DNA from: Carya illinoinensis
Taxonomy: Eukaryota; Streptophyta; Magnoliopsida; Fagales; Juglandaceae
Assembly (NCBI RefSeq): GCF_018687715.1
Contig: NC_056764.1
Coordinates: 5,210,501 to 5,274,500, forward strand
DNA: 64,000 nt
Direction: 5' to 3'
The notes under the pieces are model-generated. The model saw nothing but the letters and a program-made list of their open reading frames with translations, searched no databases and was not told the origin of the DNA. The position numbers and the translations under genes are program-made. Each line of letters opens with the position of its first letter. Position 1 is the stretch's first letter. This document shows positions 603-58,360 of this stretch, piece by piece.

Positions 603-1423
603 TGCAGATGAAGGCTATCCACTATTTTGTAGTGGTTGAATAAGTCATCGAGATTAATTTTAAGCGTTGTAAGAAACGATGTAACCTTCATTACCCTGAG
701 GATGGAATTTGTCCAATATTGGTAAGCACCCTTTTTGTGACGCCCACAAATTCCGTTTGGGATCGGACGGACATTTGAAGCGTCGAGACATGTAACACAA
801 GGTTACCTGCCCCCGTTCATGACATATAAGATGCAATAATCCTAACATGCATATAACATTATGCAATATTCGCAGCGGATAATTTTTTTTTTTTAGCAAT
901 ACTATGCACCAAACTGAAAATATCCCAATACTTAAAACATACTTCATACATAAAGATCCATTGAATAACTAAGATCACAGCACTATTCCAAAATAGTTAT
1001 GATCCAAAAGTACTGGAGATGCAACTCCATCGTACAAGTAGTAATTTAACTACTATATTAACATTAACGACGCACCGTCGTTCAGTCGACTGTGTCTAGT
1101 TGGTCAGCTCCTGATCCTCCTTCAGGTCCTGTAACAAGATCTACCATTCGGGGGAATGGTAGTTGGGACTACCACAGTGAGATTTGATTACAAATCTCAG
1201 CAAGTTAAAAAAAAAACTTCCATACAGACTAATGATGCATGTATGACAGTAAAAGCATAAATGCATAATCAAATTCATAAGTAATTAAAGCATAACTTAG
1301 CGTACAACATAGCATAATTGACATAGCTTAAATTGAATCATGAACTGAACTTGACTTGACATGAACTTGATCTGAAACTTGACTTAGCATGAACTTGCTC
1401 TGAAACTTGAATTTAACATGAAA

Positions 1424-1622
1424 AATACATACTCCACAGTTGTTGTGGCCCCATGTATTCTATGTGTAAATACATACTCCACAGTTGTTGTGGCCCCATG
1501 TATTCTATACATCACTATGCAGTTAAATACATACTCCACAGTTGTTGTGGCCCCATGTATTCTACATAAACTTGACTTAACATGAAAAATACATACTCCA
1601 CAGTTGTTGTGGCCCCATGTAT
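1424..1622. repeat. Four-copy palindromic LTR repeat
   Basis: A ~36-bp unit starts AATACATACTCCACAG and ends GGCCCCATGTATT. Its outer arms AATACAT/ATGTATT and inner arms CCACA/TGTGG are inverted, so each unit can fold as a hairpin. Copies start near 1424, 1469, 1526 and 1587, separated by short variable spacers. The other LTR carries six copies (9584-9890). Confidence 0.9.
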
Positions 1623-3464
1623 TTTACGCATCACAATTGTAGTTAAATACATAACCAACTTGAGATAGTAACATTTCGTAACATGGCATAACATATAACA
1701 GACAACATATTTAACATGACATATTTGTAATGTATAGTAATACATGACAGAATATATTGTGTAACAGATAAAAATTGATGACAGAATAAATTCTGTATAA
1801 TAGACAATTACATGATAACTTGGCATGGTATGACATATATGATAACATACATACATACACTGTAATTCTTTTACTTAGCACACATACACAGTAGACTGCT
1901 AGTAAGTTAAAAGCTAACTTACCTCGATCTCCGCGTTTCTTATAAAACTTCAAGTGCGATCATGAGGAACTGTAATTAGTGATTCTAAAAATTAGAACTA
2001 AATCACTAATAATTTGAAATATGGAAAATATTAACTTAAAGAGTAAAATTTTCATTTTACTCTCTACATGTGGGAAATTGACCGTTTTACCCATAACTTA
2101 AGGATTTTGCATACTAACTTCAAAAGTTTCCAAAATTTACATTCCTCATGTAAATTTTGTCCTAAACTTAAATATCAACTCATAAAAATTTAAAACAAAA
2201 CACAACCATGAAGAACACACTATGGTCGAAACATCCATAGGCCATTTCCCTTTATTTTTGTTGCAATTCCTTCCAACTTCAAAACTCATGCTTAAACCAA
2301 AATTTTGCAACAAACATCTTCCAATCCTAAGTTCAAAACCATACTTAAAACATCCATTTAGAAAAATCTAATAATCAACACCAAACTTTTTTGTAAAAAG
2401 ATCCAAGCATTTGAATCACAAGTTTTGACCTTAAATCAAAACATCTCCAAGAATTTCAAAAATCAAATCTTACTTCTAACATATTCATAATATCATCCTA
2501 ACATCAACCATGCTTTAAATCATCAAACTAAAGTCACCAAAATCACAAAATAACATTTGGAGTTTTTGGTTTTACACTTAGTCCAAAAACAGGAGCTTTT
2601 TCCTCAACTAGTTTTGATAAATCTCTTGATCTATGACTTATAAATATATGATCTTCAAACCAAACCATTACATGGTTTAAAAAGATGTCCTAAAACATAT
2701 ACAAGCTTCTAATTCAAGATCACATGGTTAGAAATTAACCAAAACATAAATTTAGCCAAGAATATCCACACTTTGGCTTATCTGAATATCTCTTTGCATA
2801 AAATTTCATATCTTTGAAACTAACATCAAATATCTTCAAAATAATAATATAACATGTATATAAGATGTTTAGGATCCTCCAATAAAATTATCAAAGTCAT
2901 TAGAATAGGTTTAGACCACCAAAGAGTTAAACTTTCTCAAAACAGAAACTGTTTTTCCTCTTCCAGTTTCTAAGTTTCTAAATCTAAGAACATCTTTCAT
3001 CAAAACCTTTAATCATGCAAAAATCCTCAACCAATAGTCACATATACATGTTAACAATACTCCATAAAAATTTCAGATCAATATCTATCCATTAGCTTGG
3101 TCAAAAACTCCAAACTATAACATATTCTCCAGTTTATCTCCCAGAATGACCTTTTTATAGTTTACACAATATTTGACTGACCAAATGATCTTCAAATGGG
3201 GCAAATAAGATATCCATGTAAACTAGACTCAAAAAGGAACAACTTATATGAAGGAGACTTTATGATAAAACACTTACAACAGCTTCAAAATGGGCGTGCA
3301 AAAGATCTCCTAAAATCTGTCCGAGAGAGAGTGTTTGATAATCTTTTATTAGAAGGAGTAATTGAAGATAAGTTCATGGGTGCTGGCTAGACACATTTAT
3401 GGACGAGATAAGGGAGGTGATAAGGCTGGAGTTGAGAGTTGAGTGTGGTTTTCTCCTACCCAAA

Positions 3465-3672
3465 ATATCTATAAAAGATTATCTCATAATATTCTATCCA
3501 ATAATATCTACAAAAATCAACTTAAGATATTTTTATCTAATAATATCTATAAAAATCAACTTAAGATATTTTTATCTAATAATATCTATAAAAATCAACT
3601 CAAAATATTTTTACCCAATAATATTCACGAAAATTACCTCAAGATATTTCTTTTTATCCAATAATATCTACA
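3465..3672. repeat. AT-rich tandem array in the LTR
   Basis: About four to five imperfect copies of a ~39-bp AT-rich unit containing AATAATATCTA and AAAATCAACTTAAG. The same array lies in the other LTR at 11732-11939. The ORFs across it (repeated NNIYKNQLKIFL) only mirror the repeat and are not genes. Confidence 0.85.
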
Positions 3673-3957
3673 GTTTTGAACAGACGTTTTGTCCGAAAAT
3701 GTGAAAAAAAGTTATTGCGCCATAAGACTTTAAATAACCCTCCGAGTCTAATGGCACAAATCATAATACATTTTGACACTTCTAACTATCTCCAATAATC
3801 AAAAATACACTTCTGATACCATAGTAAATAATAACACTAACTATGTAGTTAGACAAAAACCTATACGATTAATGGATTCGTGAAAACTTATGGGTTTTTC
3901 ACGAGATTCCTAAAGTTAATAGAAATTTCACAATTGAATTTCTAGCGGGCTGTTACA

Positions 3958-3979
3958 ATCTCCCCTCCTAAAAAAAAAA
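3958..3979 (-). other. Polypurine tract (PPT)
   Basis: On the minus strand a T-run is followed by AGGAGGGGAGAT directly before the 3' LTR. This is the expected plus-strand primer for a reverse-oriented LTR element. Confidence 0.85.
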
Positions 3980-4153: not shown

Positions 4154-7100
4154 TTAGATGTCAAACAACTGGGGGTACTTGGCTCGCATATCAACTTCTT
4201 TCTCCCAAGTCGCCTCTTGAATATTATGATTTTGCCAAAGTACTTTGACCAATGGGATCTTACGGTTCCGCAACTCTTTATCTTTCCAGTCAAGAATTTG
4301 CATTGGCTTCTCTTCATAGGTCAAGTTGGGTTGTAAAGGTATGCTATCGGGATCCACTATCATTGGTGTCTGATTCCCAAAACTCTTTTTCAAAGAAGAC
4401 ACGTGGAAAACATTATGAATTCCATGGAACTCAGTTGGCAATTCCAAACGATATGCAACTACTCCCACTTTCTCCACTATCTCATAGGGTCCCACATATC
4501 TCGGACTTAACTTGTTTTTCACTCCGAAACGACTCACTCCTCTCATAGGAGATACCTTCACATAGACCCAATCTCCAACTTTAAAATCTATGCTCCTCCT
4601 TCGATTATCAGCGTAGCTCTTCTGTCGACTCTGTGCTGTTTTCATCCTTTCTTTAATCAAGTGTACTTGGTCCTTAATCTCTTGTAAGACTTCTGGTCCA
4701 ACTACTTTGCTTTCCCCTACTTCATCCCAATACAGAGGTGATCTACACTTTCTACCATACAAGGCTTCATATGGTGCCATTTGAATAGTGGCCTGGAAAC
4801 TATTGTTATAAGCAAATTCTACCAAAGGTAATTGTTTCTCCCAATTCCCTTCGTAATCCAAAACACAGGCTCTTAGCATATCTTCCAAAGTTTGAATCGT
4901 CCTTTCTGTCTGTCCATCTGTTTGTGGGTGGTATGCACTACTAAACCTCAGACTAGAGCCCATCGATTCTTGTAAACTTTTCCAGAAGCGTGACGTAAAA
5001 CGAGGGTCTCTATCTGATACGATCGTCTTAGGCACTCCATGCAATCTGACAATCTCTGCTATATAAATTCTCGTCAATCTTTCTAGAGAATCTGTATTCT
5101 TAATGGGTATGAAGTGAGCACTTTTTGTCAGACGATCAACTATTACCCAGATAGTATTATTTCCGGCTGAGGTCCTTGGAAAGCCTACTATAAAATCCAT
5201 GGAAATATCCTCCCATTTCCATTCTGGGATTGGCAATGACTGCAATTTACCGGCTGGCTTTTGGTGCTCTGCTTTTACTAATCTACAGACAGAACATTTG
5301 TTCACAAATTCTGCTACGTCCTTCTTCATTCCTTCCCACCAAAAAGACTGTTTCAAATCCTGATACATTTTTGTACTACCAGGATGAGCAGTGTAAGGTG
5401 TGTTATGAGCTTCCTTTAGTACTTTTTCCTTTAACTCTTCATCTGCTGGAATGACTCTTCTGTCCTTGTAATACAGAGTCCCATCCTCTCTGAGGCTAAA
5501 GTCCACTGGTCCTTTTGACTTTTCGATCTTTTTTACAACTTCTGCAAGTTTACTGTCCTTCTTTTGACGGTCTTTCAGTTCTTCCCAGTCCAATGGAATG
5601 AATTCTTGGATTGTAGTCAACATGGTTTCCTGACTACGGTTTCTAATCAACAGTTTTCTCATACTACATAAGAGGGAATTTACTTCTGATGAAGGAACTG
5701 ATGAAGCTTCTTGTCTGCTCTTGCGGCTTAAAGCATCAGCTACCACGTTGGCCTTTCCAGGATGATACTTGATGTCGCACTGATAGTCGCTGATTAATTC
5801 CAGCCATCTTCTTTGTCTCATATTAAGATTCTTCTGCTCAAACAGGTACTTTAGGCTTTTGTGATCTGTGAAGACTTCACACTTCTCGCCATACAAATAA
5901 TGTCTCCAAATCTTAAGAGCAAAAACTACTGCAGCTAATTCCAAATCATGAGTAGGATAATTCTGTTCGTGATTCTTCAGTTGTCGTGAAGCATAAGCAA
6001 CCACTTTCCCTTCTTGCATTAGCACACATCCGAGTCCTGCCTTAGATGCATCGCTATATACTACAAAAGATTTAAGAGGTTCCGGCAGTGTAAGTACCGG
6101 TGCGGTGGTAAGTCTTTTCTTCAACTCAAGAAAACTTGTTTCGCACTTATCATTCCAAGTAAATTTCACATTTTTCTTAGTCAGGGCGGTGAGTGGTCCA
6201 GACAAACGGGAGAATCCTTCCACAAATCTCCTATAGTAACCAGCCAGTCCTAAGAAACTTCGGATCTCATGCACACTGGTCGGTCTCTGCCAGTTCGTTA
6301 CAGCTTCAATCTTGCTCGGGTCTACTGCTACTCCTCTACTAGAGATCACATGACCTAGAAATTTTACTTCTTCCAGCCAGAACTCACACTTACTAAGTTT
6401 GGCATAAAGTTTCTGATCCTTAAGTATGGTTAAAGCCATGCTTAGATGATGTCTATGTTCCTCCTTGTTCTTAGAGTAGATTAAGATGTCATCAATGAAT
6501 ACGACAACAAAATTATCCAAATAAGGTCTGAATATTTTGTTCATCATGTCCATGAATGCGGCTGGAGCATTGGTTAACCCAAAAGGCATCACTAAAAACT
6601 CGAAGTGGCCATACCTTGTCCTAAAGGCAGTTTTCAGCACATCTTGATCCTTGACTTTTAGCTGATGATACCCGGATCTCAGGTCAATCTTTGAAAACAC
6701 TGCTGCTCCTTGCAACTGATCCAACAAATCATCGATTCTGGGTAATGGGTATCTATTCTTAATCGTCACCTTATTCAACTCTCTATAGTCTATACACATC
6801 CTCATAGATCCATCTTTTTTCTTCACAAATAACACAGGTGCTCCCCACGGCGAAGAACTAGGGCGGATAAAACCCTTCTCCAAAAGTTCTTCCAATTGTA
6901 ACTTGAGCTCCTTCAACTCGGTAGGGGCCATACGATATGGCGCCTTGTGAGTCGGAGTTGTTGCCGGCTCCAACTCTATTTGGAATTCTACTTCTCTATC
7001 TGGTGGTAAACCAGGTAACTCATCAACGAAAACTTCAGGAAAGTCTTCAACCACAGGTATCCCTTGGATTCCTATAGTTTTGGTTGTCTCCTCTACAGTT

Positions 7101-7542
7101 ATCAATAGAAACGCTGAGGCTCCATCATCGATACACTTCCTAGCTTGCAACGCCGAGATCAAAGGTGGGGTGGCCTTAACTGATGTTCCTGCGTAACTCA
7201 TCCTGTCTTCAGTTGGAGGTTCAAACACAACCTCTCGTTTCCGACAGTCTATCTTAACGTAGTGCTTGAAAAGCCAGTCCATCCCCAAAATCAGGTCGAA
7301 TTCCATCTGACCGAATACTAACAAGTTAGCCTTCAGTGTCCTTCCTTCTAGCTCTAACGGACAATCATTAACTAAACGGGTACAAGATACTGTATTCCCA
7401 TCGGGAATTAATACTACAACCCGTCGTGGTAATAGTTCAGTCTGCAAACTACAAATTCGTGCAAACGCTGCAGACACAAAGGACTGCGACGCACCTGAAT
7501 CGAATAGTGCACAAGCCGAGAACCTAAACAAATTAACCCTTC
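4154..7542 (-). CDS. pol: Pol polyprotein (PR-RT-RH-INT-chromodomain)
   Basis: An uninterrupted frame of about 1125 codons ends at 4154. Counting from a TTG codon at 7531: protease DSGAS at 11-15; reverse transcriptase about 195-375 with FIDD at 345-348; RNase H with D494, E531 and D556; integrase zinc-binding H709/H716 and C746/C749; catalytic D779, D840, E876 (D-D-35-E spacing). A C-terminal stretch of about 50 residues resembles the chromodomain tail of chromoviruses. No ATG opens this frame near its start: it is closed upstream by TAA at 7570-7568, and the first ATG lies about 110 codons in, after the protease motif. The proposed 5' end is therefore a splice acceptor at 7543/7542. Polymerase and integrase act in virus-like particles during cDNA synthesis and integration. 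Every catalytic residue I checked is present. Confidence 0.93.
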
Positions 7543-7658
7543 CTAAAAAAAAATATATACACCAATATTAATACTAATTCTAACACATTCATAACACCTG
7601 CAACATCATCAATACTAAAATGAAAGAAAAAAAATATAAAATAAAATAAAAAAAATAC
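7543..7658 (-). other. Candidate GT-AG intron between gag and pol
   Basis: Gag-frame homology ends at about 7660. It is followed on the minus strand by G|GTATTT (donor at 7658), a T-rich 116-nt stretch, then a run of nine T and AG (acceptor at 7544-7543), after which protease-frame sequence begins. Removing exactly this segment keeps the reading frame across the junction. Left in place, gag stops at 7617-7615 and the pol frame is closed by TAA at 7570-7568, so the frames never overlap and a single ribosomal frameshift cannot connect them. An alternative acceptor (TTGCAG, about 50 nt earlier in the transcript) runs into a stop. Splicing is inferred, not shown. Confidence 0.6.
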
Positions 7659-8727
7659 CAGTCATGACGCCAGCTTCATCAGTTTCAGGTGCGTCAACAT
7701 CAAAATCACCGGGTGTTACTGCATACACTCGTGCCGGGATGTGGGGCCTTGGCTTGCGATCACCAGCTCCACTACCTTGTTTGGCGTTAGGACAATCTCT
7801 AATCATATGTCCTGGTTTTCCACATCGGTAACAGACTCCATATCCCTTGTAACATTCTCCAGAATGAAGCTTACCACACTTAGGGCATGGTGAATAAAAG
7901 GACGGCTTCTGTCCTCCAATCATTATTCCCTTGCCTTTCTCCGGACTAGAAAAAGGCCTCTTTTTCTCAGCACTACTGCTTGTAGTAAATGGCATGGCTC
8001 TCTTTCGATCGGTCATGTTCTGGATCGCCAATTCCTTCTGCTCAGCCTCTGCTATTGTCGCTACATTTACCAACTCTTGGTAATTCTCTATTCTAAGGCA
8101 AGCTACTTGACTTCGGATTCTAGGCAGAAGTCCTGCTTGAAACTTTTGTGCCTGCATCTTTTGAGTTGAAATCAAGTGTGGTGCAAACCTTCCCAATGCC
8201 ATGAATTTAGCGGCATACTGCTCTACAGTCAAACTACCTTGTTTTAAGGACGCAAATTCCAGGGCTTTCAATTGTTTGACAGAGTCTGGGAAGAATCTGT
8301 TGTCAAACTCTTCCTTGAACCTCTCCCAAGACAATGCAGCCATACTACCTAGTTCCCTAACTAGAAGTTGCCTACGTGTATCCCACCATATTCCAGCTTC
8401 TCCTTGGAATAGGTATCCAGCATATAGAACCTTTTGGTCCTCAAGACATCCACAAATCTCGTACGTTCTCTCGAGATCTATAATCCATTTCTCGGCTCTC
8501 AGTGGTCCTTCATTACCAAAAAAATTTGGGTAACGGTAAAGCATAAACTTCTCATATGGACAACCCCTAACTTCGGGTCTAGGTGCGTTCACTTGTTGCT
8601 GTTGCTGATGTCTAAGCACGTCAGTCAGCATACGCACAGCTTCAGCTAATCCTCCATCCATTGGGGAATCATGATTCTCCTGATTGATACCACCTTCAGG
8701 GTTTTGAGGTATTCTACCATGAGTCAT
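7615..8727 (-). CDS. gag: Gag nucleocapsid protein
   Basis: Structural protein of the chromovirus, about 356 codons to the 3' boundary at 7659 and about 370 to the stop at 7615. I chose the ATG at 8727 (start MTHGRIPQN) rather than the longer frame from 8769, whose first 14 residues look like leader. The Retrotrans_gag core lies about residues 55-200 (GYLFQGEAGIWWDTRR, FKEEFDNRFFP, LEFASLKQG). Near the C-terminus are two zinc knuckles: a variant CPKCGKLHSGEC and a standard CX2CX4HX4C knuckle beginning CYRCGKPGH, the pair typical of Del/Tekay elements. The last 14 codons (hydrophobic FFILFYIFF) read through the candidate intron and would exist only on unspliced RNA. It lies 154 nt inside the PBS end. 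Confidence 0.9.
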   Translation of the reverse strand: MTHGRIPQNPEGGINQENHDSPMDGGLAEAVRMLTDVLRHQQQQQVNAPRPEVRGCPYEKFMLYRYPNFFGNEGPLRAEKWIIDLERTYEICGCLEDQKVLYAGYLFQGEAGIWWDTRRQLLVRELGSMAALSWERFKEEFDNRFFPDSVKQLKALEFASLKQGSLTVEQYAAKFMALGRFAPHLISTQKMQAQKFQAGLLPRIRSQVACLRIENYQELVNVATIAEAEQKELAIQNMTDRKRAMPFTTSSSAEKKRPFSSPEKGKGIMIGGQKPSFYSPCPKCGKLHSGECYKGYGVCYRCGKPGHMIRDCPNAKQGSGAGDRKPRPHIPARVYAVTPGDFDVDAPETDEAGVMTGIFFILFYIFFLSF

Positions 8728-8880: not shown

Positions 8881-8892
8881 GCTCTGATACCA
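8881..8892 (-). other. Primer-binding site, initiator tRNA-Met
   Basis: On the minus strand TGGTATCAGAGC lies three bases inside the 5' LTR. It is complementary to the 3' end of plant initiator tRNA-Met, the usual primer for chromoviruses. Confidence 0.95.
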
Positions 8893-9583
8893 CCCTGTGA
8901 CGCCCACAAATTCCGTTTGGGATCGGACGGACATTTGAAGCGTCGAGACATGTAACACAAGGTTACCTGCCCCCGTTCATGACATATAAGATGCAATAAT
9001 CCTAACATGCATATAACATTATGCAATATTCGCAGCGGATAATTTTTTTTTTTTAGCAATACTATGCACCAAACTGAAAATATCCCAATACTTAAAACAT
9101 ACTTCATACATAAAGATCCATTGAATAACTAAGATCACAGCACTATTCCAAAATAGTTATGATCCAAAAGTACTGGAGATGCAACTCCATCGTACAAGTA
9201 GTAATTTAACTACTATATTAACATTAACGACGCACCGTCGTTCAGTCGACTGTGTCTAGTTGGTCAGCTCCTGATCCTCCTTCAGGTCCTGTAACAAGAT
9301 CTACCATTCGGGGGAATGGTAGTTGGGACTACCACAGTGAGATTTGATTACAAATCTCAGCAAGTTAAAAAAAAAACTTCCATACAGACTAATGATGCAT
9401 GTATGACAGTAAAAGCATAAATGCATAATCAAATTCATAAGTAATTAAAGCATAACTTAGCGTACAACATAGCATAATTGACATAGCTTAAATTGAATCA
9501 TGAACTGAACTTGACTTGACATGAACTTGATCTGAAACTTGACTTAGCATGAACTTGCTCTGAAACTTGAATTTAACATGAAA

Positions 9584-9890
9584 AATACATACTCCACAGT
9601 TGTTGTGGCCCCATGTATTCTACGTGTAAATACATACTCCACAGTTGTTGTGGCCCCATGTATTCTACACAAACTTGACTTAACATTAAAAATACATACT
9701 CCACAGTTGTTGTGGCCCCATGTATTCTATGTGTAAATACATACTCCACAGTTGTTGTGGCCCCATGTATTCTATACATCACTATGCAGTTAAATACATA
9801 CTCCACAGTTGTTGTGGCCCCATGTATTCTACATAAACTTGACTTAACATGAAAAATACATACTCCACAGTTGTTGTGGCCCCATGTATT
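9584..9890. repeat. Six-copy palindromic LTR repeat
   Basis: Same ~36-bp hairpin unit as at 1424-1622, here six copies starting near 9584, 9629, 9690, 9737, 9794 and 9855. The copy-number difference is the main divergence between the two LTRs. Confidence 0.9.
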
Positions 9891-11731
9891 TTACGCATCA
9901 CAATTGTAGTTAAATACATAACCAACTTGAGATAGTAACATTTCGTAACATGGCATAACATATAACAGACAACATATTTAACATGACATATTTGTAATGT
10001 ATAGTAATACATGACAGAATATATTGTGTAACAGATAAAAATTGATGACAGAATAAATTCTGTATAATAGACAATTACATGATAACTTGGCATGGTATGA
10101 CATATATGATAACATACATACATACACTGTAATTCTTTTACTTAGCACACATACACAGTAGACTGCTAGTAAGTTAAAAGCTAACTTACCTCGATCTCCG
10201 CGTTTCTTATAAAACTTCAAGTGCGATCATGAGGAACTGTAATTAGTGATTCTAAAAATTAGAACTAAATCACTAATAATTTGAAATATGGAAAATATTA
10301 ACTTAAAGAGTAAAATTTTCATTTTACTCTCTACATGTGGGAAATTGACCGTTTTACCCATAACTTAAGGATTTTGCATACTAACTTCAAAAGTTTCCAA
10401 AATTTACATTCCTCATGTAAATTTTGTCCTAAACTTAAATATCAACTCATAAAAATTTAAAACAAAACACAACCATGAAGAACACACTATGGTCGAAACA
10501 TCCATAGGCCATTTCCCTTTATTTTTGTTGCAATTCCTTCCAACTTCAAAACTCATGCTTAAACCAAAATTTTGCAACAAACATCTTCCAATCCTAAGTT
10601 CAAAACCATACTTAAAACATCCATTTAGAAAAATCTAATAATCAACACCAAACTTTTTTGTAAAAAGATCCAAGCATTTGAATCACAAGTTTTGACCTTA
10701 AATCAAAACATCTCCAAGAATTTCAAAAATCAAATCTTACTTTTAACATATTCATAATATCATCCTAACATCAACCATGCTTTAAATCATCAAACTAAAG
10801 TCACCAAAATCACAAAATAACATTTGGAGTTTTTGGTTTTACACTTAGTCCAAAAACAGGAGCTTTTTCCTCAACTAGTTTTGATAAATCTCTTGATCTA
10901 TGACTTATAAATATATGATCTTCAAACCAAACCATTACATGGTTTAAAAAGATGTCCTAAAACATATACAAGCTTCTAATTCAAGATCACATGGTTAGAA
11001 ATTAACCAAAACATAAATTTAGCCAAGAATATCCACACTTTGGCTTATCTGAATATCTCTTTGCATAAAATTTCATATCTTTGAAACTAACATCAAATAT
11101 CTTCAAAATAATAATATAACATGTATATAAGATGTTTAGGATCCTCCAATAAAATTATCAAAGTCATTAGAATAGGTTTAGACCACCAAAGAGTTAAACT
11201 TTCTCAAAATAGAAACTGTTTTTCCTCTTCCAGTTTCTAAGTTTCTAAATCTAAGAACATCTTTCATCAAAACCTTTAATCATGCAAAAATCCTCAACCA
11301 ATAGTCACATATACATGTTAACAATACTCCATAAAAATTTCAGATCAATATCTATCCATTAGCTTGGTCAAAAACTCCAAACTATAACATATTCTCCAGT
11401 TTATCTCCCAGAATGATCTTTCTATAGTTTACACAATATTTGACTGACCAAATGATCTTCAAATGGGGCAAATAAGATATCCATGTAAACTAGACTCAAA
11501 AAGGAACAACTTATATGAAGGAGACTTTATGATAAAACACTTACAACAGCTTCGAAATGGGCGTGCAAAAGATCTCCTAAAATCTGTCCGAGAGAGAGTG
11601 TTTGATAATCTTTTATTAGAAGGAGTAATTGAAGATAAGTTCATGGGTGCTGGCTAGACACATTTATGGACGAGATAAGGGAGGTGATAAGGCTGGAGTT
11701 GAGAGTTGAGTGTGGTTTTCTCCTACCCAAA

Positions 11732-11939
11732 ATATCTATAAAAGATTATCTCATAATATTCTATCCAATAATATCTACAAAAATCAACTTAAGATATTTT
11801 TATCTAATAATATCTATAAAAATCAACTTAAGATATTTTTATCTAATAATATCTATAAAAATCAACTCAAAATATTTTTACCCAATAATATTCACGAAAA
11901 TTACCTCAAGATATTTCTTTTTATCCAATAATATCTACA
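11732..11939. repeat. AT-rich tandem array in the 5' LTR
   Basis: Counterpart of 3465-3672: four to five imperfect ~39-bp AT-rich units. Confidence 0.85.
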
Positions 11940-12849
11940 GTTTTGAACAGACGTTTTGTCCGAAAATGTGAAAAAAAGTTATTGCGCCATAAGACTTTAA
12001 ATAACCCTCCGAGTCTAATGGCACAAATCATAATACATTTTGACACTTCTAACTATCTCCAATAATCAAAAATACACTTCTGATACCATAGTAAATAATA
12101 ACACTAACTATGTAGTTAGACAAAAACCTATACGATTAATGGATTCGTGAAAACTTATGGGTTTTTCACGAGATTCCTAAAGTTAATAGAAATTTCACAA
12201 TTGAATTTCTAGCGGGCTGTTACACTTTTAGTTTATACAAAATATGGACAACAAAATACGAGCAAAAGTTATACATAATGGTGTATCGGTAAGCACCCTC
12301 TTAGTTTATACATAATACGGACAACAAAAGTAGAGAATTAGAAAGTGAATCCACTAAATAGTAAATAACACAATTTGATCAAAGTTACTGATACTCTATT
12401 CTGTTGCAAATAAAATGAGAAAATGAAATTTTATCTCCGGGGACCAAGGAAGTTATGATCTTCACACAACAGACAAAAACCATAAATTTAAATTTATTTC
12501 AAACCTTTGGAAATAATTAAGTCTGTGTTTACGAGTCAGTGATCACTTTGTGGTTTTAATGCTGCTTACACTTATATGGAGCATGATTTGAGATGGTTGC
12601 TAACGAGTCTATGTTTATTTTTTGTTTGTGACATTTCCACAAATACCTTATGTTCACAGTCCAAAATCAAAAACTTTAGCAAAAGAAATATCACAACCAT
12701 TTCCTCAATACATTCATTCACACAATTATATAATCTACACAATCCAATTTCCAATTTGAATAAGAAATAATATCCAAAATTTGGAGCGAATTTCTAAATT
12801 TAAAACCCTAAAAATTAAAATTTCCAATTGGCAAAAACTGGGGGGAGTA

Positions 12850-17580: not shown

Positions 17581-18630
17581 ATGTCAAATCTTATAAAATT
17601 AAAATTCGTTGCTCTTGACATTTCTGGAAAAAATTATTTATCTTGGATCCTTAATGCTGAGATCTATCTGGATACGATGAACCTAGGAGATACAATTAAA
17701 GAAGGAAATCAAGGGTCCCTGCAGGACCGTGCTAAGGCAATGATTTTCCTTCGACACCATCTTCATGAAGAATTAAAAACTGAGTATCTAACGGTGAATG
17801 ATCCACTTATTTTATGGAATAATTTAAGGAAGAGATATGAACACTAGAAAACTGTAATCCTTCCAAAAGCTCATCATGATTAGATGCACCTGAGGTTGCA
17901 AGACTTCAAGAGTGTTAGTGAATATAACTTTGCACTCTTTAAAATTAGCTCGCTATTGAAATTATGTGGTGAAAAAGTCACTGATGATGACTTATTAGAG
18001 AAGACATATACTACTTTTCATGCCTCGAATGTGCTCCTGCAGCAGCAGTATCGAGAGCGAAAGTTCAAAAAATATTCTGAACTTATATCTTGTATTCTAT
18101 TAACTGAGCAAAATAATAAGCTTTTGTTAAGAAATTACCAGTCACGTCCTACTGGTTCTATATCATTCTCTGAAGTGAATAGTACCAGATTTACATCATT
18201 TCTAAAAGCGAATGGTGCATCTTTTCAAAGAAAAAGAGGGCGTGAACATGGTAGGAAAAACTATAGAAGTGGAGGTTCTAAAAGTGACCACACTAAAAGG
18301 GACAATAATAGATATACACCGTACCACCAGAAGTGGTTCAACTCAGAGAATGACAAAAGTCCTCAAAATAAATTTTTAAAGAAAAATGAAGATGGATGCC
18401 ATAGATGTGGTATAGCTGGACATTGGGCTCGTGTCTGTCGTACAGATAAGTACTTAGTTGACTTATATCAATCTTCTATAAAAGAAAAAACAAAAAAATT
18501 TGAAACAAATTTTGTTGAACAATCATATGCTTTAGATTCTATAGATGGAGAAGATATTATAAGCCTTAATGTTTTTGATTTCTTTGAGGATTCTAGTGGT
18601 AGAGTTGATCATGGAAGTGTTACTTTTTAA
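17581..18630 (+). pseudogene. gag: Copia gag with two in-frame stops
   Basis: A single frame of about 349 codons begins at ATG 17581 and is broken by TAG at 17845-17847 and TAG at 17881-17883. The first third is a UBN2/DUF4219-type gag fold (NYLSWILNAEIYLDTMNLGD, then LWNNLRKRYEH). The C-terminal third is basic and carries the zinc knuckle CHRCGIAGHWARVC (CX2CX4HX4C). It then ends in an acidic DFFED tail typical of plant copia gag. Apart from the two stops the frame is intact. In the living element it would coat RNA in virus-like particles. Confidence 0.9.
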
Positions 18631-19150: not shown

Positions 19151-19881
19151 GCCAGAAGCTCGTATTGGAAAAGCTGTAAGATTTCTCTTTAAGATGATAT
19201 TATACAAATTATTGAATCAAATATTATGATGCATCAAAAGGTGATATGATTCAAAATATTTGTATCTTTTCATGGTTATCTTGATCATCCAAAATCAAAT
19301 TACGATAAGTCGAATGATTTTCATATGGACGTCCATAAAAGAACCAGAAAATTCTTTTACTATAAAGTCTTACCACCAGAAGTGGAAAGAAAAATTTGCT
19401 TGAAGCAAATAAGATGAAATTATTCGACGTTATCTTAATTATCATATGTGAACCAGAAGTTCAGATGATAATTAAATTTTGGATGCAATAAGATAAAAAT
19501 GTCTCATATTCTAGTTGCTAAAATCCCAGCGAGGATTGAAATCCCTGTAGGACAATTAAGAAATTCAACAGTCTGAAAGTATGTGAGACCTATTGATACA
19601 AAAGGTACTGCATCTCAAAAGATAAAGATACAAATAATTTGGTGCTCCTGAATAGGCCATACCACAAAACAAGCAATAAAGTTCATCCAAATTCTCTGTA
19701 TAAAATTCTCCTATATAAACTCTTGAAGAGTGCCTCCTGAAGAGGTTTTTCATGAAAATGTCTTCCCTTGAAGAGGGACAGGTACCTGAAAATAACAAGA
19801 TCTCGTTACATTTCATGAATAATGGAGAAATTATGGATAGAAATAAAATCGTTGTTGACAACGTATTTCCATATGAGATGG

Positions 19882-20676
<795 letters not shown>

Positions 20677-23866: not shown

Positions 23867-26800
23867 TCACCTAAACATTATTATATTGAACAATGAACGA
23901 ACGTACAACCAAGGCTTCATTCTCTTATCAAAGATGCCCGATCTGTAGGTATAAGCAAACATGTCAACAAGAAGATGGAACTGCATCAATACAAACAGAG
24001 TAACGGGTACACTGGCCAAACAGATGACAGGATTGACAGTCCATGAATGTCCACGTAGCATGATTAAAAGAGCAGTAGAAAAAGCTATCATCATAGTTGT
24101 GATAGAGAAGAAGAGGGTGCAAAGGCCTATTATCATTCTTTTAGGCAAGGATTTGAGAAAATCTTCTTCTGCATAACGTGATGTAAGGATCCCCAAAAAT
24201 ATCAATACTGAAGCCGAGGAAGAAAAAAGCGACAGAGAATCGGTCAATATAAAGATCTTGAATAAGCTATCATGTAAGAATATTGGCAAGCCTGATTCTT
24301 GATTATTACCACCTGGAACGGTAAATGCTGCCGCAAACATGATAGTGACAATGAGAGCGCCTACTACCGTACAAGAAGTTGATGTGTCCTTCATCCATCG
24401 CTCTCCTTCTTTCATCAAGTCCTTGTGGGTCTTTGTAAACAATTGTCTAGGAGTCAAACCATCTGCGTTCTTAAAGTTTGTAATCATGGGATTGCAAAGG
24501 CTCTCCACCTGCTGTAATTGTTATACAGAATGTTAAAAAGAAATGCAAATAAAAGTACCTGTCAATATTTGAGAGACACTTTAAGTATATATTTACTTAG
24601 AAATTTGAATATTAACATTTATAGTTCGAAAATCTTGTTAAACACTCCAACCTAATTCATGTTAATATTGCCGAAACATAAACTCCCTCCCTTACTCTTT
24701 TTTTTTTCTTACTTTAATTTATTTTGAGTTTGTTTGCTTTTGTTCTTTGCCGCTAATCAATCTAGAATCCTATATGGTGTATGCACTTTTAACATAATCA
24801 CAGTTGAATGGAGCTCTGTAAAATCAGGTGACGATTCAAATGAGCAATTGTAACCCTACAAAATAGGTCATGCACCTATAATAATAATTTTTAAAAGTAA
24901 TACCGTCAATGAGATTTTCTTAATTAATTCTATATAATTACACTTAATAAAATCTCAGGCCAATTAGATTTCATTTACTTTTTGATCTATGAATTCACGC
25001 TCTTCGTTTATTTCGGGGAAAAAGAAAAGATTATGAGCTTTAGGACATCTATAATAATTATGATGACATCTTCCATAGATCTTGGAGAGGTGGAAGACAT
25101 ATGTGAGATGCACTTAATTAAGGAAAAAGAATTTATTTTAAAGATTTAGAGGGGCTACTACTTTTAGTAGAAATGCTTTACAAACTGAAGTGTCATTAAT
25201 TAATAGTTTAAAAAAAAAGTAAGTCAAATCAATATTTGTTACGCTGGGGATGTGCAGCAATCACATGAAGTTTATACTACTTTTTTTAATAAAAATTATA
25301 GTAAGTTTAGTATTTTTCCTATATGAGTAAATGAGAGTAAATGCGGATATGGGAATATCTCAACCATTTTTGGTTTGATTCTAGCAGATTTAAGGACCCT
25401 AGTAATATTATCCACAAATGGCAAAAGGAAACTTGCCTTAAAAGTTAAGACTTCTTTGACAAATAATTTTCAACTTTTGCTGTTCTCATTTATTTTCTCT
25501 GTGTAAAAATCTCTAGAATTTGTAAGATGCAGTAAGTAAAGACTGCACACCCAAGAAATATAACGTGTGAGAGCTGACCTTAAACCATTGCAACTCTCTT
25601 TGCATCTGCAAAGCTGCACCTGGGATGTGATCAAGCGGAGTGAATTCTGTTAACATTGCTACCATATGTAATATGTTATTGCCGAAGACGTCTCTGTTAG
25701 CTGCCCACATGCTTGCCTGTCTGGAGCGGAATGTAGCATAAAAGATATCAGCATGGCGATGTAGGGCAGCCAACATAACGATGCCTCTGTTTTCCTCATC
25801 ACGGATATGCAAAAGTTTTGGATTTGCTGTCACTATTCCAACAACAATCTCAAGGATCCCTTCCCTCATAGCCCGGAATATTGCTGAATAAACACCACCA
25901 TTTATCATGTCTTGATGATCTAAAGTTGATACAGCTTTGCACATGCAAGACACGAGTTCATAGGATCTGACATGGACCAACTTCATCTCATATAAATGCT
26001 TAAATCCTTTGTCAATATGGAAGCAATGTCAATTTTTCTGTATGAATCTATTAATAAACGACAAAATCAAACTAAGAATGAAAAGTTCAAGAAATTAACC
26101 AATAAATTATATTAATCAAAAGGATGCACCATACCCAAGATGTTAAGGAGACTTGAAACTAGCTGACGCAATAGAGCTCGCACTGCAAAGTAAAAGCATA
26201 TTTGCTCATCACAAATATACAATAGAAAATTAATACCAAAAACAAAAATAATTTAGTGACTTTTATTCAGATACACATTTGAGAAATTTAAGCATATTCC
26301 ATTACTAAGGTCTCTTGCTTGGTAAGTAATAAGAAACTACTTTGTCGAATCAGAGAAATCTGCAAACTAGTCATTTTTACCAAAGAAATATGGCATTCAT
26401 GCTCTTTCTCAGTGATCACTAACTATTCATCATCATTAATGGGCCTATGGCAATTAATTGGTGAAGCACTCATACACATTGCTCTAATTTTTTGCCTCAT
26501 TTTGTCAACAGTCGTAGATCTGGAAACATTAAGTTGTATGAATAGATAAGACCATATCGCAGGGTTCCACCCTACCCCTCCCCAAAGATCATAAGACAGA
26601 CAGATTAGATCATAAAAACATGGTATGCCATGAAAAATTTTAATGACAAAACTGGACTTATTGGTCAACTCAGTTAATTTTTAAGTATGAGCAGTTACTA
26701 CAAGCTGGTGTATTATATGCTGAGTTGGACAGGTTTTGATATGCTCGGCTAGGATTAGTAAGAGTTCTGCACGTTAGCATGTTGGCAAACTTAGTTACAT

Positions 26801-27057
26801 TCTGTCTTATGAGCCGGAAAGAAAAGTTGGGCAACAACATACCTGGTCCGATAGTTATTTCTTGATTGTTTTGAATGTTCAAACGAATTTCATCCGTGGT
26901 ATGAGCCCGTGGAATGTGTATACCTTTTCAACAAAAAAAGGCTGATGAGTTTGAAGTAATGATTTAATGCATTTTTAATGTATTTCTCGCTGATAGCATT
27001 TTTACGCATTACTCCACACAAACAATTGAATAACTAAATCTTCAATGTACAGTAAAA

Positions 27058-27094
<37 letters not shown>

Positions 27095-29428
27095 TGCAGA
27101 GTGGGTTAAGGTTGTGTATGTGTGTGTGCATTTATTTATTTATATTATGTTTAATGTTTGTCATGTTTCACAGGTATTGGTTGCTTTAAATCTTCATGTC
27201 ATCAAAAACCGGCACCACTGCATTTGATCTTCTTTATCAGGCAAGCAAGTTTACTGGATTTATCATCTAATGTACAAAACGAGGGAGAGGAAAACCTTAC
27301 AGTCAATCACATCGTAAAAATATGGTGCAAATTATCTAAAATTTTGAAAAAAAATAAAGTAGTAAAGGAAAAGAGGAACCAACGGAGTGCATCCTATTCC
27401 ATATTGACTTTGATATTGCACAAGAATGGCACCATGAAGGTGGTTTTGAAGGATAGTCCAGTGAGAGAACTGACATGAGAATAATGCAATAGCCACAAGA
27501 TGTCTTGAAAGTTATTACAGTGAAAGTGGCATTGGGTTAAGTTATTAGAATCGTGTCTTTGTAGCTACTAGATTAATTACTCCTTATGTGGAAATCCATT
27601 ATTTGATAATGTTAATGTAATCCTTGAAGAAATCAACTGGATCCTAGACGTGAGCACACATTTCCAGAACAATGTAATGAAAAGCAAGCGAAAAGAAGTT
27701 GGTACTGACAGGCGTAGATCCATTTTTTCCAAAACGCGAGCCGGGTTGCACCGGGGAATGCATGAGGCATAGAAGCCAATACATACAAAGGGGTGAAATT
27801 GTCTCTGTCTGGTGCAAAAGCCAAACGCGGCCAACCCTCCATTAAATGCACGGCAATATCTAGTGTTGAATCATGCATGCGTACAGAAAACAATGAACAA
27901 AAGGAATTATGTTGCCAAGATATAAAATCATCAGAAATAACAGCCAATGAATGGTAAGACAAGAAGCACTTCTTACCAAAAAGTCCAGTATAGATAGTGT
28001 GGTTTAAAAGCGTAGCACCGTTGTGGCCCTTTTCTGGCTTTAGCTCTTCCAAAGGAGTGTGAAGATAGAGATAGCGAGCCAATTCTTTATGGCCATTCTC
28101 AAAGGCAATAACAACAGGAATATCTTGCTGATTATTTCCAATGCTGACTAAGCTCTTGTTCTTTCTAATCATGCACTCTGCCATCCGGTTATTACCCTTA
28201 ATAGCTGTATAAGCCAGAGCTGTATTACCACCAAAATCTGGTATTGCCAAGTCTTCTTCCTTCATCATCTCCACCAACTTCTCCACTATATGTTCGTGTT
28301 CAGCAGCAACAGCAGTGTGAAGAGGCGTCTGGCCTGAAATATTTTCGATTGTTGCTGTCTTTGCATTGGGGTGGAGCTTAAGGAAATCATTTGTCGCGTT
28401 CCAATTACCACTTTGAATAGCCTGAAGCAAGGCAGCATACTCAGAGAATTCATTGTTCTGGTTGCCATCCCTCCCTGCCATGGTTTAATTGTTCTCCTTA
28501 AAGAATGAAAAAAAGGGATACCATTCCGACATCAACGTGCCAACCACAGAATTATCTTTTATGTTGATTTGAAGTTTCAGAATATGTAAATGACATTTGA
28601 ATTAATTAGGACCAACAATGGACAGGTCATACCACGTCAAGGCTAGCAAAAAGTATTTCTCAGACTAATAAGAGAAGCACAATTTCATTTGCACTAGGAG
28701 TTTTGCAAACCGGTAAGGTGATTGATGTTGTACATAATCATCGATATTGTACTGAAACATTTGAAATCGGAAAAACCACGACTGGGGCTGGTTTTCAGTT
28801 CCATGGTATGACACCAAATATGTAATCTACCTATTAAAAACCAATTGAATGGTTAAAATTTACAATGCATCCAATAGAATCCATGTTTGAGCCTCTCGAA
28901 TCATTGATAATTTTCTTAAATGTATTATAATCCGTGTGGTAATATGTGTTGGCCAGCTAGAAATAATTTGCAGTTAAAATAAAACTAGAGAGTGTCACCT
29001 GGGCTGCTTGATGTGTTTCCTGCATCTTGATCAGCTGCATTTGGTGGTTGCTCATGGTTCTGTTTTCTATCTGACGTGTTTGATGAGTTTAGTAGTGCAA
29101 GCTCAGGGTTAATTCCTCGTGCGGGTTGCTCATACATTTTAGCCAATGTATCCCACAAAACTCTGGCAGGACTAATATCTTTGATCTTAGACAGTATGTC
29201 AATCCCACATGAAATCTGAATTGCATGTAAAGTTGCAGCATTCCTCTTCCTCCAAGCCTTGAATTCTACTTCATCATCTTCTGGATTAGGAGGTTCTGTT
29301 GTTGTTTCGATAATGTCCCAAAGATCTTGAGCCAACAGATAGTTTTTTATGCAAGCACTCCAGTTCTCATAATTTTTAGTTCCAAGAACTTCAGGAACAA
29401 CTGTGCCTGGAGGAATGGTTGTTGCCAT
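23867..29428 (-). CDS. Ankyrin-repeat/PGG membrane protein with N-terminal gag-like domain
   Basis: Host gene of the ITN1/At5g04700-like ankyrin-PGG family; such proteins sit in membranes and are linked to stress and salicylate or ABA signalling. My exon model on the minus strand is 29428-28999, 28474-27977, 27859-27710, 26923-26843, 26182-26135, 26006-25579 and 24508-23867. All junctions are GT-AG and the frame stays open: 2277 nt, 758 residues. Residues 1-105 resemble a copia gag (UBN2/DUF4219) domain (NYENWSACIKNYLLAQDLWD, ALHAIQISCG, LWDTLAKMYEQ). About 150-430 hold ankyrin repeats (SGQTPLHTAVAAEHEHIVEK, GNTALAYTAIKGN). The PGG domain begins near 580 with VPGG at 609-612 and about four membrane helices. 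A shorter reading starting at ATG 28481 is possible, but that ATG overlaps the splice acceptor GGCAG. The first exon's inclusion rests on matching splice phase and recalled relatives. Confidence 0.85.
27059..27093. repeat. (CA)n microsatellite in an intron
   Basis: About 17 CA units within the intron between coding exons 3 and 4 of the ankyrin gene (counted in transcript order). Confidence 0.9.
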
Positions 29429-40532: not shown

Positions 40533-41882
40533 ATGAAAGTCGACGAATTAATTCATGAGCATGAAATCCCGGCCTTGGATTTCCAGGATCTCCAGGTGAT
40601 TTCGGCTGTCGGACGTGGAGCCAAAGGCGTCGTTTTCCTAGCGAAAGACAAAGCCTCTGACAAGCAGCTCTTAGCTTTGAAGGTTGTCTCCAAGGCTCTG
40701 ATTGAGGAGAAAGGCAAGGACCGCGGCGAGTACAAGAGGATCTGCTTTGAGCAGCAAGTGCTTCACCATTTCCGGCATCCGCTTTTACCGAGATTGCGTG
40801 GAGTTTTGGCTACACAAAATGTTGTGGCCTATGCTATGGATTATTGTCCCGGAGGTAATCTCCATTCTCTACGGAAAAGGCAGACTGAGAAGATGTTCTC
40901 CGATGATGTTATTAGGTTAGCTTTCAAATCCTTCTGTTTGGTTTCCGAGCGAAAATGGAGTTAGATAAGTTCATATGTTAATATAAACTTGATCCTTTTT
41001 CTTCCTTTTCTCTTCTCTAGGTTCTACGCGGCAGAACTGGTGTTGGCGTTGGAATATTTGCACAGTTTAGGCATAGCTTACAGAGATTTGAAGCCCGAAA
41101 ACGTTATGATTCAAGACAACGGTCACATAATGCTCGTCGATTTCGATCTCTCCACGAGATTATCTACAAAAACTCCTCGATCTTCTCCGAACCCCAGCTC
41201 GGTCCCCAAACCTCACCCGGTCAATAAAAAGCGGTTCTCGCTTTTGCACCGTTGGTGTAATTCCGGCATCTCGCCTGAGGAATCGGCGTCAGCTTGTGAA
41301 GTCCGCGTCAACTCCGGCGACTCGGATGAGAAGTGTAACTCTTTCGTCGGAACAGAGGAGTACGTTGCGCCGGAGATCGTGTCAGGGAAAGGCCACGATT
41401 TCGCGGTGGACTGGTGGTCACTCGGGGTCTTACTGTACGAAATGCTGTACGGAATGACGCCGTTTAAGGGGTCCAATCGAAAAGAGACCTTTTATCGGAT
41501 TATATCCAAAGTGCCGGAGCTGACAGGAGAGGCGACGCCGTTGAGGGACCTGATCGCGAAGTTGTTGGAAAAGGATCCAAAGAAGAGAATCGAACTGGAG
41601 GGAATTAAGGGCCACGATTTCTTCGAAGAGGTTCAGTGGGATGACGTGCCTAAAATCTCAAGGCCACCTTTCATCCCGGGAAATGAAAGCGAGGTCACAG
41701 AGGGAAGGGAAAATATAGACGTGGAGTTGTTTGTCCAAGGAATCTTTGGCAACGGCGAAGTGGAAGTTCCGAAAGGCATAAACGTCGAGAACCATAATAA
41801 GGAAGAGAATACGAATAAGAAGGCATGGGTTGAAGAACAGAATCTCACGACTACTGCAAATGATAGATTTAATATTTTTTGA
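40533..41882 (+). CDS. OXI1: OXI1-like AGC protein kinase
   Basis: Serine/threonine kinase of the plant AGC group, closest in memory to Arabidopsis OXI1 (AGC2-1), which is activated by PDK1 and links reactive oxygen to MAP-kinase defence and root-hair signalling. Two exons, 40533-40915 and 41021-41882, with donor ATTAG|GTTAGC and acceptor TCTCTAG|GTTC, give 414 residues, about family length. Visible: glycine loop GRGAKGVVF at 27-35, lysine K50 (ALK), catalytic YRDLKPEN with D150, and DFD at 168-170 in place of DFG. A ~50-residue insert follows, before the activation segment NSFVGTEEYVAPE; the DFD and the insert are both AGCVIII hallmarks. The chain ends FNIF, a C-terminal FxxF PDK1-docking (PIF) motif. 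Start ATG at 40533 matches the family N-terminus. No defects seen. Confidence 0.93.
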
Positions 41883-57474: not shown

Positions 57475-57577
57475 CCTCCGAATCTAAAGGAGATCAGATC
57501 CACCACTGCTCTTGCTCCTCTCCCAAAGCCTCCCATTCCTTCGCAATCTATCCTTAGATCTCTCTCTGTGTTCGGTA

Positions 57578-58360
57578 ATGGGTAGGCTTTGTTTGAAGTT
57601 ACCGGTGATTCTGGGGGTCTTGGCGACGGCTCTGCTGGTCTCGCCGGCTCTGTCACAGACCTGCACGTCGCAGAAGCTCCGTAACAAAAATGACTACCCC
57701 AACTGCACCGATCTCCATCACCTGGGTGCCTTCCTCCACTGGAACTTCAACGCTTCCAACTCGTCGCTGTCCATGGCCTTCGTTGCCCCTCCGGCCAAGA
57801 CAGGCGGCTGGGTTGCGTGGGCCATCAACCCCAACTCGACCAAAATGATAGGTTCCCAGGCGATTTTGGCCTTCAAATCCAACGGCGGGGCCGTGACCAT
57901 CCAGACCTACGACATCAAGGCCTACAATATCAGCTTGTCCGGGTTGAACCTCTCGTACCCTGTGTGGGACCTGAAAGCGGAGGAATCCAGCGGTAACATC
58001 ACGATCTACGGGAAATGGAAGCTGCCGGCGAAGACGGAGATGGTGAACCAGGTTTGGCAAGTGGGTCCGGGCATTCACCCAAACGGCTATCCGATAATAC
58101 ACGACGTCAGCAGTAATGCGGAGAACCTCAAGTCTATGGGGACCCTAAACTTAGTTACGGCAGTGGCTTCTAGTCCTGCTTCTGAACCTGCTGCTTCGGG
58201 ACCCTCTGGGAATACTGCTCCTGGTCCTGGATCTGCTGGGAGTGCTCCAAGCCCTGGATCTTCCAGCGGAAAAAACGGGGTTTCAAGAAACAGAGACAGA
58301 GCCATTTTGAGCTTATGCATGCCTTTATTTGTGATTCTCGGTAGTTTGATTGTCTTCTGA
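57578..58360 (+). CDS. AIR12: AIR12-like DOMON protein, GPI-anchored
   Basis: Single-exon gene, 260 residues, for an apoplastic b-type cytochrome of the AIR12 family (auxin induced in root cultures 12), which sits on the outer plasma membrane and exchanges electrons with ascorbate and other partners. Signal peptide about 1-26 (VILGVLATALLVSPALS), DOMON domain about 45-170. M90 (STKMIGSQ) and H175 (YPIIHD) sit where the Arabidopsis heme ligands are reported. Several N-glycosylation sites (NCT, NAS, NSS, NIS, NLS, NIT). A Pro/Ser/Gly-rich linker about 198-235 is followed by a hydrophobic tail ending LFVILGSLIVF, the GPI-anchor signal. Start ATG at 57578: an in-frame extension to 57512 begins with TTG and is rejected. 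Intact. Confidence 0.94.
   Translation: MGRLCLKLPVILGVLATALLVSPALSQTCTSQKLRNKNDYPNCTDLHHLGAFLHWNFNASNSSLSMAFVAPPAKTGGWVAWAINPNSTKMIGSQAILAFKSNGGAVTIQTYDIKAYNISLSGLNLSYPVWDLKAEESSGNITIYGKWKLPAKTEMVNQVWQVGPGIHPNGYPIIHDVSSNAENLKSMGTLNLVTAVASSPASEPAASGPSGNTAPGPGSAGSAPSPGSSSGKNGVSRNRDRAILSLCMPLFVILGSLIVF

Follow-up and report, generated by a model that had tools for sequence, protein, structure and literature searches.

A probable spliced intron separates gag from pol in a young Tekay-like retrotransposon of Carya illinoinensis

An LTR retrotransposon whose gag and pol are both open, and whose two reading frames do not overlap, raises the question of how its Gag-Pol polyprotein could be made. Such an element lies complete on the minus strand (12224-736) of the window, the whole 64,000-nt stretch of Carya illinoinensis DNA analysed here (C13:5210501-5274500), and its relatives were sought in the 674-Mb, 17-contig assembly. 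The element is bounded by a 5' LTR of 3,329 nt (8896..12224, minus strand), a 3' LTR of 3,222 nt (736..3957, minus strand) and the target-site duplication CTTTT, whose two copies were read at 731..735 and 12225..12229. A primer-binding site, TGGTATCAGAGC (8881..8892, minus strand), which we take to be of the tRNA-Met type, adjoins the LTR, and a polypurine tract, AGGAGGGGAGAT, was read at 3958..3969 (minus strand). Since the LTR pair differs by only 5 transitions over 3,222 aligned sites and one 107-nt gap, this intact-looking element is young. Both LTRs contain tandem repeats around AAATACATACTCCACAGTTGTTGTGGCCCCATGTATTCTA (window 1423-1653 and 9583-9920), and the repeat length in the 5' LTR, 107 nt, equals the size of the gap between the LTRs.

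The gag exon (7659..8727, minus strand) encodes a capsid and a CCHC zinc knuckle (Pfam Retrotrans_gag, zf-CCHC), and the pol exon (4154..7542, minus strand) encodes protease, RT, RNase H, integrase and a weak chromodomain by Pfam, the Chromo match (residues 1098-1134, E 0.079) being below the curated cut-off. Pfam RNase H matches overlap in a single region (residues 471-595). The element presumably belongs to the Tekay clade; its LTRs of more than 3 kb, 5-nt target-site duplication and tRNA-Met-type primer site are Tekay-type traits, although they are not unique to Tekay. The gag ORF, whose start was taken as the ATG at 8727, ends at a stop at 7617-7615, and the pol frame is shut by a TAA at 7570-7568 and open from 7567 onward, which bears out the statement of the initial annotation that the frames do not overlap. 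Two simple ways of reaching pol were considered and rejected. Reinitiation was discarded because the earliest ATG in the pol frame, at 7306, is beyond the protease DSG motif, and a single frameshift because the TAA that shuts the pol frame lies beyond the gag stop and because the gag-to-pol phase varies among copies of the family.

Several further ORFs occur in the window. By eye, one resembles a copia gag piece (17884-18630), others resemble exons of an ankyrin-repeat protein (23867-28484), one resembles an AGC-type kinase exon (40965-41882) and one a DOMON-type protein (57488-58360). In addition, two minus-strand frames that overlap at 19565-20336 encode long runs of Ser-Leu, which point to a simple repeat of the (GA)n type.

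Between the end of gag homology (VMTG) and the start of protease homology (VNLF) lies a segment of 116 nt (7543..7658, minus strand) that fills the interval exactly, and its proposed removal as a phase-1 intron would rejoin a split Gly codon. The segment starts with GT (7657..7658) in the context CTG|GTATTT, which is no strong match to the plant donor consensus, and ends with AG (7543..7544) after a T tract, in the context T9 AG|GA. A branch-point-like TTAAT motif was read at 7567..7571, about 25 nt 5' of the acceptor, and fits the branch-point consensus YTNAY. The gag stop codon (7615..7617) lies inside the segment and is reached upon retention. With 69 T, 26 A, 18 G and 3 C, the segment has a T fraction of 0.59, compared with 0.24 in gag and 0.26 in pol, and no 116-nt stretch of the element is richer in T; this fraction is reached in 5 of the element's 11,374 windows of that size, all of them at most 3 nt away. 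The third frame is open over a stretch flanked by T8 and T9 tracts. Relatives with a single ORF, P0011 among them, read VVTG-T-IPLFGSLAYTLFDSG through the same place, without extra residues at the junction, and this zero-gap fit agrees with the description of the segment in the initial annotation. The accompanying remark that removal keeps the frame is correct but weak as proof, since 18 of the 64 GT x AG pairs tried at and near the junction do likewise. An internal AG|GT is also present (7596..7599, minus strand); AGGT recurs within 82 of the 92 segments found in related copies, mostly as TTGCAG|GTATT, and resembles a recursive or alternative splice site.

Related copies, whose comparison had been suggested as a check, show that splice sites and segment are conserved. 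Family A comprises 93 junction loci, pooled from nucleotide and protein searches of the genome; the 401-nt junction query matched full length in each of the best 40 of 302 candidates scored, and in the protein search the best 93 of 8,869 candidates were scored. A T-rich segment (mean T 0.58) of 85-124 nt occupies the same codon in 92 of the 93 examined loci. Among these 92, the donor is GT in 90, GC in one and TT in one, the acceptor is AG in 91 and AA in one, and in 90 a YTNAY motif precedes the acceptor by 15-50 nt. Even L105, the most divergent locus, with flank identities of 77% and 82% (one flank end extrapolated by 14 nt), has an 85-nt GT...AG segment in the same place. An exact-flank pattern matched 60 genome places at a spacing of 95-125 nt and none at 0-30 nt, although the latter skipped one intron-free copy that is a single base off the pattern; a reversed-pattern control at both spacings had no match genome-wide. 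Relatives were also sought among viral contigs and other genome contigs, and none was confirmed there.

The length of the segment varies without regard to reading frame. Family-A segments fall into all three remainders modulo three (36/32/24), and 39 copies differ from the window by 81 indel events over 4,450 segment sites, compared with 0 over 22,815 coding-flank sites. Many of these indels fall in T or TA tracts, so slippage partly explains their number, but they could not be tolerated in a segment whose translation had to stay in frame. The middle 71 nt vary like fourfold sites (pi 0.0205 vs 0.0147), a comparison in which no coding constraint is seen. The gag frame stops within the segment in 73 of 92 copies and is open through it in 19, reaching pol in seven. 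In those seven (L011, L012, L016, L036, L065, L076 and L098) the segment is open and a multiple of three, and gag and pol form one frame joined by a hydrophobic stretch of about 35-40 residues.

The single remaining family-A locus (L049, on C2) joins gag directly to pol, with the seam precisely where the splice sites are predicted. This copy has its own LTRs (LTR distance 0.067) and target-site duplication (CTTCT), indicating that it is a retrotransposition product. It is also broken: the matched part contains two stops, a TGA and a TAA, and its gag flank shows a gap of 13 nt. It nests within carrier clades of 14 rows (100/95) in a gag tree and of 8 rows (98/87) in a pol tree; the two trees were built separately, from short alignments and with unsettled bootstraps. 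In both trees it adjoins L100, a copy with a 97-nt segment and a lost GT, in a weakly supported pairing. When its junction was used as query, it alone was seamless among the best 40 of 250 candidates, and in the other 39 places the pol pieces start at base 129, which is the junction.

Intron-free copies are numerous among the scored places of a second family, B, found with P0155, a Juglans regia protein that shares 54% identity with the window copy in the protease region. The best 53 of 16,029 candidates comprise 41 seamless and 12 split places, a ratio biased by the higher scores of seamless matches; junctions were read in all 12 split and in 34 of the 41 seamless places. All 12 split places contain a 96-nt intron, CAG|GTATGG...TTCAG|GA, which shares its codon and phase with the family-A intron and occurs in three distinct sequences, with GT and AG in 12/12; when retained, it stops gag after two codons in each of them. 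All 34 examined seamless places are without the intron, exact to the base (the ends of one family-B locus, L138, were extrapolated by 5 and 2 nt). Four intron-free copies (L115, L125, L128 and L130) are identical to the carrier L111 over about 250 flank bases, and a fifth (L129) to the carrier L110 over a similar length, in both cases on different chromosomes. Because seamless copies are numerous, and 22 of 41 are without a stop across the matched 630 residues, the intron is dispensable in family B. The intron state must change 3 times on a tree from 150 gag columns and 4 times on one from 100 pol columns; 2 and 3 of these changes, respectively, are forced by well-supported branches, with the proviso that the alignments are short and the bootstraps unsettled. 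The simplest reading is that the losses in family B arose by reverse transcription of spliced RNA, to which exchange between carriers and non-carriers could have contributed; gain of the intron in part of family B is formally still conceivable.

The conserved GT...AG termini, the frame-blind drift in length and the exact intron-free copies indicate that host cells spliced the intron and that the spliced RNA was reverse-transcribed, evidently more than once. Precise removal with a continuous frame is seen in these natural intron-free DNA copies. The initial annotation had proposed a spliced intron in a young Tekay-like element, and this proposal is strongly supported by the kept splice sites, the drifting length, the intron-free copies and the intron of the sister family; we assign a probability of roughly 0.88 to the reading that the segment is a U2-type spliceosomal intron between gag and pol that is spliced. 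Sister copies lacking the segment had been named in advance as an observation that would speak against splicing. Such copies exist, but their gap lies exactly at the splice sites, which favours splicing.

Other readings of the segment account for less of this evidence. A short AT-rich block between two intact genes might, as the initial annotation had itself allowed, be an insertion confined to a single defective copy (another mobile element, say), but a site occupied in 92 of 93 loci, the highly divergent one included, excludes this scenario for practical purposes. It is also very improbable that the segment is translated as a hydrophobic linker, with pol reached by slippage on T tracts, which would take two shifts in the copy of the window. 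The T8 and T9 tracts bordering the third-frame stretch, and the seven copies with an uninterrupted frame from gag through the segment into pol, agree with a linker; against it stand the segment lengths in all three remainders, the gag frame closed in most copies, the variation of the segment's middle at the level of fourfold sites, the relatives without residues at the junction and the copies cut exactly at GT...AG.

Gene models give weak support to the splice join, with 9 of 11 using other joins. Eleven Carya models, tied to loci by shared 20-residue words, cross the junction; two have the exact join (P0125 and P0132, which match best to loci with introns of 110 and 92 nt), three use a donor further upstream and six have other joins. 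The upstream donor, CCG|GTGATT (7708..7709 on the minus strand of the window), is combined with the unchanged acceptor in P0123, P0139 and P0142, a join inferred from the protein sequences. In the Juglans regia model P0154, a receptor-like kinase (RFK1-like) is fused to this lineage's gag, protease and RT, probably through an annotation artefact.

In a protease-RT protein tree of 19 rows, families A and B are sisters at 100/99, and the single-ORF proteins P0011 and P0015 come next at 97/95. A genome search with P0011 gave, among the best 31 of 20,779 candidates, 27 contiguous and 4 split places. By our own sorting, the contiguous places belong to family B (16), family D (6) and family E (5), and all four split places belong to family A. 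One D junction and one E junction were read, and both are in frame without an intron. The simplest history would be a single gain before the split of A and B, followed by repeated losses. Independent gains at the same codon in the two families seem unlikely. The intron sequences of A and B look unlike each other and the donor contexts differ (CTG|GTATTT and CAG|GTATGG), as separate origins would predict, but fast divergence of intron sequence is expected anyway, and codon and phase are identical in what are sister families. The Juglans protein P0127 ends in ...IIGIFF, a tail suggestive of gag translation running on into an A-type intron. The gag protein P0150 has a Cys/Phe-rich tail, VFVLAGESCVSFSCFCC..., which might reflect such a read-through from gag into an intron of another lineage.

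An intron of this kind could affect the balance between Gag and Gag-Pol. Retention of the intron would yield Gag, as gag usually meets a stop inside it, and removal would yield Gag-Pol, as pol has neither an overlapping frame nor an ATG before the protease active site. Partial splicing would thereby set the Gag:Gag-Pol ratio. Control of the ratio by incomplete splicing fits the data and is our best guess, held with a modest degree of preference. For family A, the DNA is lukewarm on such control, and retention does not always bring a Gag stop, given the 19 copies with an open segment, seven of them open into pol. It is rather unlikely, on balance, that the intron is spliced as a passenger that regulates nothing, with Gag arising by proteolysis, as it does in elements with one ORF, and the retained RNA serving as genome only. 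A passenger would explain why those 19 segments fail to stop gag, why seamless family-B copies are numerous, many without a stop in the matched part, and why families D and E manage without an intron; it explains less well why 92 of the 93 family-A loci examined still have the intron though its loss is mechanically possible, and why all 12 family-B introns stop gag at once.

A broader picture can be offered tentatively, at slightly less than even confidence. The walnut family may harbor a chromovirus lineage with two forms: an intron form, in which host splicing sets Gag and Gag-Pol, and a one-ORF form derived from reverse-transcribed spliced RNA. The intron would then act as a natural indicator, with each independent intron-free lineage representing one capture, and the frequency of capture may follow donor strength. 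The intron-free share is 1 of 93 examined loci in family A, with the donor CTG|GTATTT, vs 34 of 46 in family B, with CAG|GTATGG. It has long been asked how plant retrotransposons produce Gag in excess of Pol, and here sister families with and without the intron coexist in one genome. Copies that are identical over about 250 flank bases and differ by the intron could make its effect on Gag and Gag-Pol readable from natural transcripts, and the intron-free copies show how often spliced RNA enters reverse transcription.

Compared with known elements, the window copy resembles the Tekay (Del) elements Bongo of beet and Mtr58 of Medicago, as far as the available text describes them, in its long LTRs, 5-nt target-site duplication, tRNA-Met-type primer site and the order gag-protease-RT-RNase H-integrase, whereas an intron is present here and none is mentioned for them in that text (PMC3605345, PMC2533021). 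Families D and E of the same genome run from gag to pol in one frame, unlike family A. According to the accessible part of one survey, most groups have one ORF, and Bianca and Ogre are named as having separated ORFs; like the present element, Bianca has two ORFs with an intron-sized gap, there 172 bp on average, but it is a Ty1/copia element, and splicing work is reported there for Ogre only (PMC6317226).

In the Ty1/copia elements BARE1 and EVADE, the accessible text states that unspliced RNA encodes Gag-Pol and that splicing creates a stop that leaves Gag only (PMC3735527, PMC12786077). As here, the intron is short, U-rich and near the end of gag, with 104 nt in BARE1, and in the text available it alters the Gag:Pol balance (PMC3735527, PMC12786077). 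Copies of spliced BARE RNA were sought in barley DNA and, by the same partial source, could not be amplified (PMC3735527). Unlike in BARE and EVADE, retention of the intron breaks the gag-pol frame in the window copy and in 12/12 family-B introns, with exceptions in 7/92 copies of family A. CRR is a centromeric chromovirus. Bagy2 and CRR are named as spliced Gypsy elements, and the CRR splice is said, in the part of the source available, to remove rt, which differs from a splice that separates gag from pol (PMC3735527). A literature search, mostly outside subscription papers, covered introns and intron-free copies of such elements as well as work on Juglans and Carya, and found no chromovirus described with an intron between gag and pol.

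The closest parallel is Ogre, a Ty3/gypsy element of the Tat group, for which the available text describes a partly spliced intron between GAG-PROT and RT (PMC6317226). Both are long-LTR Ty3/gypsy elements of dicots with an intron in the polyprotein region that presents an in-frame stop if retained (in the window copy, 12/12 family-B introns and 73/92 family-A copies). However, the intron described here lies between gag and protease, measures 85-124 nt (family A) or 96 nt (family B), interrupts a chromovirus-like element and has exact intron-free counterparts in both families. Tat elements are recognized by an additional RNase H and an intron between protease and RT; in the window element the intron precedes protease and there is one RNase H region. 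The window element would work like an Ogre without being one, and if the single gain holds, an Ogre-like solution would have been reached separately in chromoviruses.
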